A stretch of DNA of 64,000 nucleotides from Mesotoga sp. BH458_6_3_2_1 (GTDB lineage: Bacteria; Thermotogota; Thermotogae; Petrotogales; Kosmotogaceae). The notes under the pieces are model-generated. The model saw only the letters and a program-made list of their open reading frames with translations, was not told the origin of the DNA and did not search any database. Positions 16,912 to 50,494 of this stretch are shown here, piece by piece; positions within the stretch are counted from its first letter, which is position 1; the number at the start of each line of letters is the position of its first letter. Both the position numbers and the translations under genes were made by a program. The stretch spans positions 558,001 through 622,000 of the forward strand of contig NZ_JFHL01000002.1 in NCBI RefSeq assembly GCF_003664995.1, written 5' to 3'.

Positions 16912-19900
16912 ATGCCAGTAAGCACATACAAGAGAAAGGTCAGTAAGCTGGAAATCGATATTGCCTCACCGGACAGAATCAAGGGCTGGTCAAGCGGGGA
17001 AGTGAAGAAGCCCGAGACGATCAATTATCGTACGTTCAAACCGGAAAGAGACGGACTTTTCTGTGAGAAGATCTTCGGACCGACCAAAGATTACGAGTGT
17101 ACATGCGGCAAGTACAAGGGAAAGAAGTACGAGGGAACCGTATGTGAGCGCTGTGGTGTGCGTGTCGAATCTAAAGAAGCTCGCAGAAGAAGGATGGGTC
17201 ACATCGAACTGGCCGCTCCTGTCACACACGTTTGGTATTTGAAGAGCGCGCCAAGTGTTCTGTCATCACTACTCAACATTCCTGCGAAAGATCTCGAGAA
17301 CATAATCTACTACGGATCGAAGAGAGTCATTGAAAGACTGTATGTAGTTACCGATCCGAAGGAGACGGATTTCTTTCCAGGAATGACGATGTACCAGACT
17401 GAATATGAGATCTACACGAAGAAGCTCGGCTTCGAAGTGGAGCAGGGCTACAAGGTGAAGGCACCTCACGGACCGGTTACAACAGACATTGACGGTAAAG
17501 TCACTATCGAGAGAATCGATAGCAGTACCGAGAGAGAACTTAACTGGGTAATCGTCAAGGATGAGACTGGGATAGAGAAGAAGTACCCGGTTTTCGAAGG
17601 TGCCCTTATATATGTTCAGAACGAAGACGAGGTTCATAAGGGTGACACCCTTGCCGACAGATTCCTCTTCGAGGATGAAGTTCTTTCCGCTACAGAGTAT
17701 AAGATCTTTGACGAATACTATCCAGGAAAATTCGAAGTTGAGACAGATACCGAAAGCGACAGGCCGATAGTTATAATAACGGAAATTGATCCCGAAGTAT
17801 CCGAAGAGACGGGCAGGATTGTCGGAGAAGTCTTGATAGAAAATGAGTACGAGGCTTACAAAGAACTCTATCCTGGAAAGGTAACCTGTGATTACGGAGC
17901 GGCCGCAATTAAGAAGCTGCTGCATGGAATGGATCTGGAAGAACTACAGGTTGCCATTGAACTGGAACTGAAGTCTATTCCGAAGAGCAGTGCGAGGGCT
18001 CTTAAACTTCTTAGAAGGTTGAAGTACGTAAAGGACTTCATTGCCTCTGACAACAGGCCGGAATGGATGGTTATGGACGTAGTGCCGGTAATCCCTCCGG
18101 ACCTGCGGCCTATGATTCAAATAGAAGGTGGAAGATTTGCAACAACGGATCTGAACGACCTTTACAGGAGAGTAATAAACAGGAATAATCGGCTCGCGAA
18201 ACTCCTTCAGATCGGAGCTCCCGACATAATAATCAGAAATGAAAAGAGGATGCTTCAGGAGGCTGTTGACTCCCTCATATACAACGGGAGAGTTGGAAAG
18301 GCCGTATCAGACAAATCTGGCAGGCCCTTGAAGTCTCTTACAGACCTGGTAAAGGGCAAGAAGGGGAGATTCAGAAGAAATCTGCTTGGAAAGCGAGTAG
18401 ATTACTCAGGTAGAGCAGTTATCGTCGTTGGACCCGATCTGAAGATTCATGAATGCGGAATCCCTAAGAGAGTAGCTATGGAGCTATTCAAGCCGTTTGT
18501 TCTCTCTAGGCTTCTTCACGGAAGTGAATCGAGCAAGACAGCGAGAAAGCTCAAGAAAACGATAATAGAGAAGGAAATGCCCGAGGCCTGGGAAGTCCTC
18601 GAAGATGTGATCAAGGGACATCCGGTTCTCCTCAATAGAGCACCGACGCTTCACAGGATATCCATTCAGGCTTTCATACCCAGGTTGGTAGAAGGAAACG
18701 CGATTCAGCTTCATCCGCTTGTCTGTGCACCATTCAACGCAGACTTTGACGGTGACCAGATGGCTGTACACGTTCCCTTATCCGCAGCTGCCCAGGCAGA
18801 GGCAAAGTTCCTCATGCTCAGCAGATACAACGTGATTTCCCCTGCGAGCGGGAAGCCTATTTCGATGCCCGGTAAGGACATAATCGTTGGTGTTTACTAT
18901 CTTACGACCGTTGACCACGAGTATGAGAAGAAGGAAAAAGAAGTCATGGATTACTACTCGACCCTCCTCAAAGATGAGAAGATTTCCGATGTTGAAGCGA
19001 GGAGAATGGTCAGGGAAAAGGCTCTTGAATGGGTCGATTGGAAGTTCTCTTCTCCAGGAGAAGCGCTTCTTGCTTACGACATGGAATATATATCACTTCA
19101 CGATCCTATTCTTGTTCAGCTGGATTCCTCATCCGGCGAGCTCACACTGACAACGGTAGGAAGGATAATATTCAACACAATAGTCCCAGAAAAGCTCAAA
19201 GACCACATGAAGAAGTTCAACAAGAAAGCTATAAAAAAGTTGATCTACGACTGCTTCCATGAATACGGAATCGATAGGACGGCAGATCTTCTGGACGATA
19301 TGATGTCTCTTGGTTTCCACTATGCAACTGCTTCGGGCCTGACAATATCGATAAATGATATCGTTGTTTATCCGCAGAAGGACAAGGTTATCGATGCCGC
19401 TCAGGAAAGGGTAGACCAGATCGAGAACCTGTATAAGTCGGGATTCTTGACTGAAGATGGTAGAACACAGGAGATAATTAGAATCTGGTCCGATACGACT
19501 CAGGAGATAATGGAAAAGACGTACACGGAGTTCGAAAAGTATCCGTTCAATCCAATTTACATGATGGTCGATTCCGGAGCTAGAGGTAACATAGACCAGC
19601 TGAAGCAACTCGCTGGTATGCGAGGTTTGATGGCCGATCCATCGGGGAAGACGATCGAAGTACCGATAAAATCAAATTTCAGAGATGGACTAACGGAGCT
19701 TGAGTTCTTCACATCTACCCATGGTGCAAGAAAGGGTTCGGCCGATACGGCTCTTCGAACGTCGTTCGCCGGTTACCTCACCAGAAGGCTAGTCGATGTC
19801 TCCCAGACAATAACCGTAACTACACCAAACTGCGGCACTCATGAAGGTATCGAGGCCGTTGAACTGATGGCTGACGGTGTAACAATTGAGAAGCTCGAGG

Positions 19901-30732: not shown

Positions 30733-31665
30733 GTGAAGAGAGTTATTCCTTACATATTTATTGCACCTGCAGGTGCAATAATTGGTTTCTTTCTGTTATA
30801 TCCATTGATATACTCATTTGCCATCAGCTTTTTTGAGTGGGATCTTTCTCCGACAATGACTTTCGTGGGTTTGGGGAACTACGCACAGATTCTATCATCG
30901 AGCGAATTCTGGGACTCAATGTTATACACCGCTTATTACATTCTCGGTGTTCTCCCTTTTTCACTACTTATCGGTTTTCTTTTTGCCAATCTTCTGAACG
31001 ATTCGACAATGAAGGGAATAGGGTTCTTCAGAATGATCTATTTCCTTCCGGTAGTAACATCGCCTATTGCTGCTGGTATGGGCTTCAGCTTTCTTTTCAG
31101 TACTGAATTAGGGTATATTAATCACATAATCGGGTCTTTCGGAGGGGAGTATGTGAACTGGTTGACCAACCCAGATGGGATCTTTCAAATCCTTTTCAAC
31201 TGGACTGGAATTCAGCTTCCGAGGATCTTGCAGGGTCCTAGCGTGGCGCTGTTCGTGATAATATTGATGGGTATCTGGCAGAATATTGGATACGCAATGG
31301 TCGTCTATCTTGCAGGCCTTCAGAATATCCCGGCGACTTACTATGAAGCTGCGGCCCTGAGTGGGGCAAACAAGTTTCAGATGTTGAGAAAGATCACTGT
31401 ACCGCTTCTTTCGCCCACCACTTTCTTTCTACTGATAATGTTCAGCATAAGCTCCTTTCAGGTCTTTGGTCCAATAATGGTCATGACTCCCGACGGAGGG
31501 CCGCTCAACACAACCTCGGTCGTTGTCTTTAGGCTCTATCGAGAGGCTTTCTCATATTACAGGTTTGGTTATGCAGCAGCAATGGCCTTTGTTTTATTCT
31601 TATTCGTGGTATCTCTTACTGCCTTTCAGGTGAAAACTATCGAGAGGACTGTACATTATGACTAA
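30733..31665 (+). CDS. CUT1-family sugar ABC transporter permease (MalF/UgpA-like)
   Basis: A 310-residue protein with six membrane segments and the EAA-loop typical of binding-protein-dependent permeases (YYEAAALSGANKFQMLRKITVPLLSP). The signal-anchor-like N-terminus (RVIPYIFIAPAGAIIGFFLL) is typical of CUT1 MalF/UgpA-type proteins. GTG 30733 follows GGGGGTC. The 100-bp gap before it holds no clear promoter that I can define. The end overlaps the second permease by 8 bp. It is the first of three importer genes; no ATPase gene is nearby, so it probably shares an MsmX-type ATPase, which is inference. Confidence 0.9.
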   Translation: MKRVIPYIFIAPAGAIIGFFLLYPLIYSFAISFFEWDLSPTMTFVGLGNYAQILSSSEFWDSMLYTAYYILGVLPFSLLIGFLFANLLNDSTMKGIGFFRMIYFLPVVTSPIAAGMGFSFLFSTELGYINHIIGSFGGEYVNWLTNPDGIFQILFNWTGIQLPRILQGPSVALFVIILMGIWQNIGYAMVVYLAGLQNIPATYYEAAALSGANKFQMLRKITVPLLSPTTFFLLIMFSISSFQVFGPIMVMTPDGGPLNTTSVVVFRLYREAFSYYRFGYAAAMAFVLFLFVVSLTAFQVKTIERTVHYD

Positions 31666-48743: not shown

Positions 48744-48752
48744 TGTTATAAT
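48744..48752 (+). promoter_or_regulatory. Extended -10 promoter of the Xer-type recombinase gene
   Basis: TGTTATAAT at 48744-48752 is an extended -10 element with no good -35. Transcripts would start near 48759, at the first base of the large inverted repeat. Confidence 0.6.
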
Positions 48753-48757
48753 ACGAG

Positions 48758-48789
48758 ATATGAGTCATAATGACTATTATGACTCATAT
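48758..48789. repeat. Perfect 14-bp inverted repeat with dif-like layout
   Basis: ATATGAGTCATAAT (48758-48771) and ATTATGACTCATAT (48776-48789) are perfect reverse complements around GACT. Read as a Xer site, the inner 28 bp are a left arm ATGAGTCATAA (48760-48770), a centre TGACTA (48771-48776) and a right arm TTATGACTCAT (48777-48787). The core CATAATG..TATTATG is identical to that of E. coli dif. It lies 24 bp upstream of the recombinase ATG. It could be a recombination site, an autoregulatory operator or an mRNA hairpin. Confidence 0.65.
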
Positions 48790-48812
48790 TTACAATAATC
48801 TGGGGGTTGATT

Positions 48813-49712
48813 ATGAATTTCAACGAATCCGTTGAGAGGTTCAAGGAGAACATGGAATTTGTCAGGAATATGTCTTCCAACACTATTGGAGCATATCTTT
48901 CCGATCTCCGTCATTTCGAATGCTTCCTCACTGATCACGACATCGACTACACTACAGTGAAGAGAAGAGACATCGAGCTCTTCGTGAAAGAGTATTCGCA
49001 GGGGAAGTATTCCAAAAAGAGGCCTTCGGCAACAACCGTAGCGAGAAATCTTTCAACAATCAGATCTTTTTACACGTTCCTGTACATTAGCGGAATGGTG
49101 GGCAAGGTCCCAACCGAACTCATAAAGAATCCCAAGACCCGGCGCAGAATTCCAGACTATATAAGTCACGATGAGGTCATGGAGATTCTCTCCTCATTCA
49201 AGGAAACGAATCTCGGTAAGAGGAACAGGGCCATTGTTGCAGTGATGTATTTCTGCGGATTGAGGGTCAGTGAAGTTTGTAAGCTCAGACTCGGCGATCT
49301 GCGTCTGGGAAGCTCTCCCGCTGTCAGGGTTATGAGCGGAAAGGGAAACAGAGATAGAGAAGTCCCCATGAACAACCATGTTCTTGCTATCCTGAAGGAT
49401 TATCTCTCCATAAGAAAGGACTTTCCCATTGATGAGTACGAAGATCACGTCTTCGTTGGAACTCGTGGAGAGCCGATGGCAAGAAACGTAATTCCCAAAG
49501 TACTAAATACACAAGTACAATTAGTATATCCGGATAAACGGATTCATCCGCATTTATTCCGGCATAGTTTTGCGACACAACTTTTACAAAAGGGAGCAAG
49601 TATAAAGACTGTACAAGAATTATTGGGACATGCAAATTTGGCTACTACAAGTATCTACTTGCATATAACTGATAGAGAGAAACGAGCAGCTGTACAATTG
49701 TTATCAGATTGA
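48813..49712 (+). CDS. Tyrosine recombinase, Xer type
   Basis: A 299-residue site-specific recombinase with an N-terminal SAM-like core-binding domain (about 1-95) and a catalytic domain. Catalytic residues are R151 (CGLRVSEV), K177 (MSGKGNRDREV), H247 and R250 (HPHLFRHSFATQLL), H273 (LLGHANLATTSIY) and the nucleophile Y282, so the enzyme looks active. Its size and C-terminus fit XerC/XerD/XerA rather than phage integrases. ATG 48813 follows GGGGG. From about 49500 (the last 70 codons) leucine is mostly TTA/TTG and CAA, ACA and GTA dominate, in contrast to CTC/CTG-type codons before. The dif-like repeat lies in its leader. Confidence 0.88.
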   Translation: MNFNESVERFKENMEFVRNMSSNTIGAYLSDLRHFECFLTDHDIDYTTVKRRDIELFVKEYSQGKYSKKRPSATTVARNLSTIRSFYTFLYISGMVGKVPTELIKNPKTRRRIPDYISHDEVMEILSSFKETNLGKRNRAIVAVMYFCGLRVSEVCKLRLGDLRLGSSPAVRVMSGKGNRDREVPMNNHVLAILKDYLSIRKDFPIDEYEDHVFVGTRGEPMARNVIPKVLNTQVQLVYPDKRIHPHLFRHSFATQLLQKGASIKTVQELLGHANLATTSIYLHITDREKRAAVQLLSD

Positions 49713-49741: not shown

Positions 49742-50494
49742 ATGATTGATATACACAATCACACAACTTTTTCAGACGGAAGGAATACTGTGGAGCAGGT
49801 AATACAGTCAGCAGTAGAAGCAGGGCTTCAGGTCATAGGTCTTTCAGATCATTTCGATCCTTATGTCTGTCAGGAAGTCTGCCTCCAGCCGGAAGAGATC
49901 AACGGTTATCTGAAGGAAATAAGAAGTTTCGATGGAGAACTTCCCATAAAAGTCCTTGCCGGTCTGGAACTCGGGCTGCAGTCTGAAGGGATTCTCTGGC
50001 CCGGAGAGGAGATGGATTACTACATCTACTCTGTTCACACTGTCCCTGGCAGGCCGGATCTGAAGAGTCTGGAAGATCCGTGGGAGATCTACCTTAAAGA
50101 AGCGATTCTCGCAGTCGATCTCATAGATAGGCCCGGTTTTTTTGGACACCTGGATTTTCTGAGGAGGCACATACCATTTGGTAGACCGCCGAAACCCGGA
50201 CCGCTGATAGATCGTCTTCTCATGAAGTTGGTTTCGAATCATGTTGGGCTAGAAGTGAACACTTCGGGCTGGATGTATGGACTTGGAGATCCGTCACCTC
50301 AGTCGTGGGTAATCGAGAGGTATCTCGAACTGGGCGGCAATCTACTGACAATAGGATCTGACTCTCACAGAGCGTTGCAGGTCGGGAAATACAGCGTTCA
50401 GGCCGTTTCATTGCTCAGGGGAATTGGAGTGAAAGAGGTCTTCTATTGCGAGAACGGCAGTTACGTACCATTCAGAATTCTGGAGGAAGAATGA
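49742..50494 (+). CDS. PHP-domain metal-dependent phosphoesterase (first paralogue)
   Basis: A 250-residue stand-alone PHP protein, related to histidinol phosphatase HisK and YcdX. Metal ligands are visible in DIHNHTTFSDG (HxH), GLSDHFD, the ELGLQSE glutamate, SVHTVPG, GHLDFLRR and the C-terminal GSDSHR. The substrate is unknown; histidinol phosphate is one possibility, but no his genes are near. ATG 49742 starts after weak GCGGAG. It overlaps the DUF2461 gene by 4 bp. A close paralogue (about 40-50% identical by eye) is at 53977-54729 on the other strand. Confidence 0.85.
   Translation: MIDIHNHTTFSDGRNTVEQVIQSAVEAGLQVIGLSDHFDPYVCQEVCLQPEEINGYLKEIRSFDGELPIKVLAGLELGLQSEGILWPGEEMDYYIYSVHTVPGRPDLKSLEDPWEIYLKEAILAVDLIDRPGFFGHLDFLRRHIPFGRPPKPGPLIDRLLMKLVSNHVGLEVNTSGWMYGLGDPSPQSWVIERYLELGGNLLTIGSDSHRALQVGKYSVQAVSLLRGIGVKEVFYCENGSYVPFRILEEE

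Follow-up and report, generated by a model that had tools for sequence, protein, structure and literature searches.

The window, i.e., the whole stretch of 64,000 nucleotides of Mesotoga sp. BH458_6_3_2_1 that was analysed, encodes a Xer-type tyrosine recombinase (xer) with a long palindrome in its leader. The features of this locus are listed below by window coordinates, strand, and description.

48744..48752, + strand: extended -10 element TGT-TATAAT (TG at 48744-48745, TATAAT at 48747-48752), assigned by sequence consensus
48758..48789, no strand: perfect inverted repeat ATATGAGTCATAAT-gact-ATTATGACTCATAT, with 14-bp arms that are 100% complementary and a 4-nt gap
48760..48770, + strand: left arm ATGAGTCATAA, proposed recombinase-binding half of the putative dif, kept in Mesotoga-type genomes
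48771..48776, + strand: 6-bp central region TGACTA of the putative dif, which differs among lineages while the arms stay
48777..48787, + strand: right arm TTATGACTCAT, proposed recombinase-binding half of the putative dif, assigned by leader comparison
48801..48808, + strand: probable ribosome-binding sequence TGGGGGTT, 5' of the ATG, assigned from sequence
48813..49712, + strand: xer, Xer-type tyrosine recombinase of 299 aa, complete open reading frame with its ATG at 48813
49742..50494, + strand: gene for a PHP-domain protein, 30 bp 3' of xer and probably co-transcribed with it, a neighbour outside the proposed mechanism

A first-pass annotation of this DNA had noted a perfect 14-bp inverted repeat between an extended -10 and the ATG of the recombinase gene, and had fitted its inner 28 bp to the 11-6-11 layout of dif. 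Both observations were confirmed: the 28-bp site ATGAGTCATAA-TGACTA-TTATGACTCAT occupies positions 48760-48787 within the repeat at 48758-48789, 7 bp 3' of the extended -10 and 25 nt 5' of the xer start codon. Whether its middle is counted as a 4-nt gap, as in the repeat, or as a 6-bp centre, as in the dif layout, is a matter of framing, and the underlying sequence is the same. The core CATAATG-nn-TATTATG had been described as identical to the core of E. coli dif, which holds; over the full site, 16 of 28 positions are identical to E. coli dif. With up to three mismatches allowed, the only match to the 28-mer in the window, and in the whole genome, is the leader site itself. Inverted repeats with arms of at least 10 bp number 17 in the window versus fewer than one (0.67 per window) in dinucleotide shuffles, an excess that probably consists in part of terminators, and arms of at least 14 bp are expected about 0.003 times per window by extrapolation from these shuffles. 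The leader repeat is not a chance product, because it is conserved in the 19 leaders described below. A terminator was rejected on basis of the missing T-run and the position after the promoter, and a CRISPR or attC-like repeat on basis of the single copy. Elsewhere in the window, another palindrome, at position 30758, has ungapped arms of 12 bp or more.

Profile searches assigned a SAM-like N-terminal domain and a Phage_integrase domain to the xer product, which is the sole PF00589 protein detected in the 99.98%-complete genome; a XerC plus XerD pair was not detected in this genome. The protein obtained equal scores with the XerC and XerD models, each under the cut-off, and reached neither the XerA cut-off (199.1 bits vs 220) nor that of XerS (111.9 bits vs 267). 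Its nearest solved structure is E. coli XerD, with XerH far behind, and the residues R151, K177, H247, R250, H273, and Y282, representing an RKHRHY-type catalytic set, are invariant among 15 aligned orthologues. Searches detected no FtsK_gamma domain in five genomes and no FtsK/SpoIIIE motor above the cut-off in the five genomes examined for the motor, with controls such as E. coli being positive in both cases; this absence suggests that the Xer/dif system would be independent of FtsK. As a separate observation, the last ~75 codons of xer (window 49485-49709) have a third-position GC content of 0.11-0.26, compared with about 0.55 in the preceding part of the gene. The change is abrupt, close to codon 225, and was seen in each of the seven close orthologues that were compared; it may reflect an ancient recombination event within the gene or selection on base composition.

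Orthologues of xer were taken from 60 relatives and oriented, and their leaders were read for 11-6-11 sites with an arm complementarity of at least 9/11 at no more than 120 bp from the start. The first-pass annotation had proposed such a survey of related Thermotogota and had regarded absence of the repeat beside orthologues as evidence against its idea; the site was found in all 19 readable orthologous leaders from two lineages, with 16 in the family of the window and 3 in a second order, at 9-11 complementary positions out of 11. Only one of 80 control leaders, belonging to general XerC/XerD genes from other phyla that were collected by a scan of genome contigs, gets to 9/11, which is the weakest level among the 19. 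The leaders of the distant Thermotogota orthologues L018-L024 and L028-L031 are without the site, and several of these genes appear to adjoin an upstream gene directly. Between genera the arms diverge in step (ATGAGTCATAA, TGGAGACATAA, TGGACGTATAA, ATGCATGATAA), their inner ATAA/TTAT is largely retained across the 19 leaders, and the centres seen are TGACTA, TGTTGA, TGTATA, TATACA, TAGACA, GAAAAC, GGTATC, GGTACA, and TGTCTC. The combination of paired arm changes, retained inner bases, and a free centre is as predicted for a recombinase site.

Within the family, an xer orthologue was found in 16 of the 17 genomes searched, and a pattern search located the site at xer in 15 of these 17 genomes; genome G013 was missed by this search, yet a diverged site sits in its xer leader (L016). 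Neither the gene nor the site was found in G007, a genus member assembled in 640 contigs with 7% contamination, which is probably an assembly gap. The family search gave one additional pattern match in each of G008 and G009, and at up to three mismatches each genome of the genus contains a single site, with a copy on a mobile element in G008 as the sole extra. A better-conserved dif elsewhere had also been anticipated as a possible objection; apart from the element copy, a second dif-like site was not encountered in the genus at this level of mismatch. Scans of IMG/VR returned four matches of one arm type, approximately the chance range for 18 fixed bases, and none of the other arm type; these matches were set aside.

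The promoter of xer was assigned by consensus alone. A -10 hexamer lies 5' of the site in all 19 leaders and carries a TGn extension in 17 of them, while most are without a good -35 element. In the 16 family members the -10 and the site are separated by 4-7 bp, and in the other order by 1-5 bp; the distance from the site to the start codon ranges from 24 to 52 nt in the family and from 12 to 31 nt in the other order. Because the former is steady and the latter varies in the family, the site is tied to the promoter rather than to the start codon. The site overlaps or abuts the consensus-defined promoter, and with the usual 6-8 nt from a -10 to the start point, the first transcribed base would fall on the edge of the left arm or slightly within it. 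A pair of recombinase molecules on the 28 bp would overlap the footprint of the polymerase, and repression by occlusion would be the simplest consequence of this geometry. The link between recombination and xer expression that the first-pass annotation had suggested is therefore plausible from the layout, and since exchange between dif sites on sister chromosomes restores the same sequence, such coupling must work via occupancy of the site and not via rearrangement.

In the sister genome G008, another site with this type of arms was found within two 3126-bp units arranged in tandem at L156:7443-13707 (G008:C1 about 847,443-853,707), inside a gene of an antiporter operon. Both units contain genes for a helix-turn-helix protein and a RepA-like AAA protein but lack an integrase gene. 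The site between the units reads ATGAGTCATAA-TTGTTA-TTATGAATCAT, with arms that are identical to those of the genus leader site at 11/11 and 10/11 positions. The left junction of the insertion consists of the chromosomal left arm and the right arm of the element, and the right junction is the reverse. When the flanks are joined, an open reading frame runs across them, and G003, G000, and G001 have the target without the insertion. Element and target have the 6-bp centre and adjoining right-arm bases in common, which places the exchange at the position expected for cleavage by a Xer enzyme. The insertion provides natural, if indirect, evidence that such sites recombine, presumably by the action of a Xer enzyme, and the 3.1-kb unit is probably a Xer-exploiting mobile element in Thermotogota. 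No other copies of its replication protein were found in the 60 relatives, and the only homologues detected are distant plasmid proteins. G008 also contains two identical genes for a 197-aa tyrosine recombinase (L159:4263-4856 and 17597-18190; G008:C1 about 1.159 and 1.173 Mb), ~13 kb apart and near a transposase-like gene and genes resembling restriction or nuclease functions, and these enzymes could in principle have catalysed the insertion of the element.

The first-pass annotation had also suggested that GC skew might switch at the site. In these genomes the raw skew of the sampled stretches mainly reflects gene direction, and it was replaced by a model that uses 4-fold degenerate sites of the two strands to tell the effect of replication from that of transcription. 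The terminus was estimated at 0.28 Mb in G008, with the site at 0.271 Mb (3/100 permutations as good, a modest result that makes the coincidence tentative, as sampling was denser near xer in G008 and G012), at 2.24 Mb in G012, with the site at 2.076 Mb (~164 kb apart, 7% of the genome; 0/100 permutations as good), and at 0.98 Mb in G001, with the site at 0.818 Mb (45/100 permutations as good, not significant); the model had no usable fit in G011. Terminus and site thus coincide in G008 at this modest level, the site is offset in G012, and significance was not reached in G001. The xer/site locus is in the terminus half of the chromosome in G008 and G012, and the positional evidence is supportive but uneven. 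Along the shorter arc, the G012 site lies ~156 degrees from the estimated origin; archaeal dif sites have been placed at 122-144 degrees (review, PMC5357621). The strand skew of G012 places the origin near 0.77 Mb (0.76-0.78 Mb), opposite the terminus estimate of 2.24 Mb given above, and its dnaA gene is located at the start of the sequence (G012:C1 1-1000), apparently nearer to the terminus than to the origin.

The dif-type identity of the leader site for a single Xer is well supported by comparative sequence data, because the site is conserved, nearly single-copy, and matched by a natural insertion. It is likely, in our judgement, that the repeat represents a single-Xer, FtsK-independent chromosomal dif that doubles as an operator at the xer promoter. 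In the proposed mechanism, one Xer protein, encoded by the gene just downstream, would occupy both 11-bp arms, and strand exchange across the 6-bp centre would resolve chromosome dimers without FtsK. With the site starting 7 bp past the extended -10, xer would be transcribed from the edge of the left arm or just inside it, and Xer bound to the site would prevent formation of the open complex and repress xer, which would keep the recombinase scarce while the sites are occupied. We infer all three elements of this mechanism, i.e., Xer as the exchanging enzyme, dimer resolution at this site, and repression on binding. An extension to the two Thermotogota lineages in which dif would be a feedback element of the xer promoter, in which free Xer on dif silences xer, and in which passage of the replication fork or synapsis of the dif sites of a dimer opens the promoter, is more speculative, and we would lean against it.

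The same geometry would be expected if the repeat served as an operator only, at which Xer represses its own gene while dimers are resolved at an undetected dif elsewhere. The fixed distance between the -10 and the site is as predicted by this explanation, and the ~164 kb between the site and the skew switch in G012 would fit it as well; however, an operator has no need of a full 11-6-11 layout with an asymmetric and freely varying 6-bp centre, the genus is without a second dif-like site at up to three mismatches apart from the element, 0.8 Mb sampled from G012 yielded just two weak matches to the general layout, and a mobile element has undergone exchange at a site whose arms are the same, which together make an operator-only role unlikely. 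The weight of this last argument would be lost if the insertion in G008 had been made by the 197-aa recombinases, of which two gene copies are present, as it would then be silent on Xer and the leader site. Such an origin is improbable, given that the arms of the element are identical to the genus leader site at 11/11 and 10/11 positions and that the exchange respects the same 6-bp centre.

An RNA function, in which the 5' end of the xer mRNA would form a stable hairpin that stabilises the transcript or tunes its translation, is very unlikely. The transcript would open with a 16-bp stem, and the 96-nt leader folds at -31.3 kcal/mol (z = -5.2 versus shuffles), but a strong fold is automatic for any transcribed DNA palindrome, and most differences between the arms (A.C, A.G, T.C, A.A, C.A, T.T) break pairs, with two G.U pairs only. 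Moreover, the distance to the start codon varies among the leaders, no Rfam family scored above its gathering threshold, and this explanation accounts neither for the dif layout nor for the site of the element. Finally, recombinase and site could be remnants of a decayed mobile element, as its integrase and att site, rather than a housekeeping dif system, as promoters of prophage integrases often overlap att sites (PMC2951348). We consider this highly improbable in view of the orthologue in all but one of the 17 family genomes searched, with a leader site in each readable case, the ordinary flanking genes, the XerC/XerD family profile, and the finding that xer encodes the sole tyrosine recombinase found in the genome of the window.

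As a chromosomal dif with an operator function, the system has elements in common with several known recombination modules. The 28-bp layout and the enzyme family are those of XerC-XerD/dif/FtsK, and the core CATAATGnnTATTATG matches that of E. coli dif, whereas the system described here has one recombinase, near-symmetric arms, a site in the xer leader, and no FtsK. By analogy, its mode of action would be most like that of archaeal XerA/dif, in which one Xer acts without FtsK on one 28-bp 11-6-11 site in the terminus region (PMC2958812), located close to xerA in some archaea (PMC2958812, PMC5357621). A single Xer, the canonical layout, and the lack of a detected FtsK are common to both, but the host is a bacterium here, the protein scores 199.1 bits, under the XerA cut-off of 220, and the site has a fixed distance to the -10, which was not found described for XerA. 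Single-Xer genes with an adjoining dif are also known from XerS/difSL of streptococci and lactococci and XerH/difH of epsilon-proteobacteria (PMC5357621, PMC2731167), where they form a near-terminus module; these enzymes of ~355 aa constitute a separate group with atypical sites and depend on FtsK, in contrast to the XerC/D-like enzyme of 299 aa, the canonical 11-6-11 site, and the absence of a detected FtsK here. The promoter of KplE1 intS overlaps its att site, and autorepression by the integrase has been measured (PMC2951348), which is the same arrangement of a tyrosine recombinase promoter overlapping its own recombination site; the intS/attL site is part of the att region of a prophage and comes with arm-type sites and a directionality factor, whereas the leader site would be a housekeeping site that is vertically kept. 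The G008 element resembles IMEX, mobile elements that make use of Xer, in being integrase-free, tandem, and provided with a dif mimic, and differs from them in its location at a secondary site in an antiporter gene, not at the host dif.

Thermotogota are not mentioned in the main text of a survey of predicted dif sites from 2011 (PMC3025954). Nothing on Thermotogae and chromosome dimer resolution was found in the open-access literature, and no description of a dif inside a xer promoter was found in the same literature, which excludes the original XerS/difSL paper. Within that scope, the statement in the first-pass annotation that no such case had been described holds for the placement in the leader, and it does not extend to adjoining dif sites or to integrase promoters that overlap att sites, both of which are known.

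In bacteria, the timing of chromosome dimer resolution is normally set by septal FtsK, and the presence of a Xer and a textbook dif without a detectable FtsK in these bacteria raises the question how the reaction is timed. The constant spacing between dif and the promoter of the only recombinase suggests control by supply of the enzyme. If the feedback extension were true, the supply of recombinase would follow the state of the terminus, replacing the FtsK-based timing that these bacteria lack. The leader site would also provide a dif identification for a group for which none was found in the open-access literature, as part of a compact module of one gene and one site.
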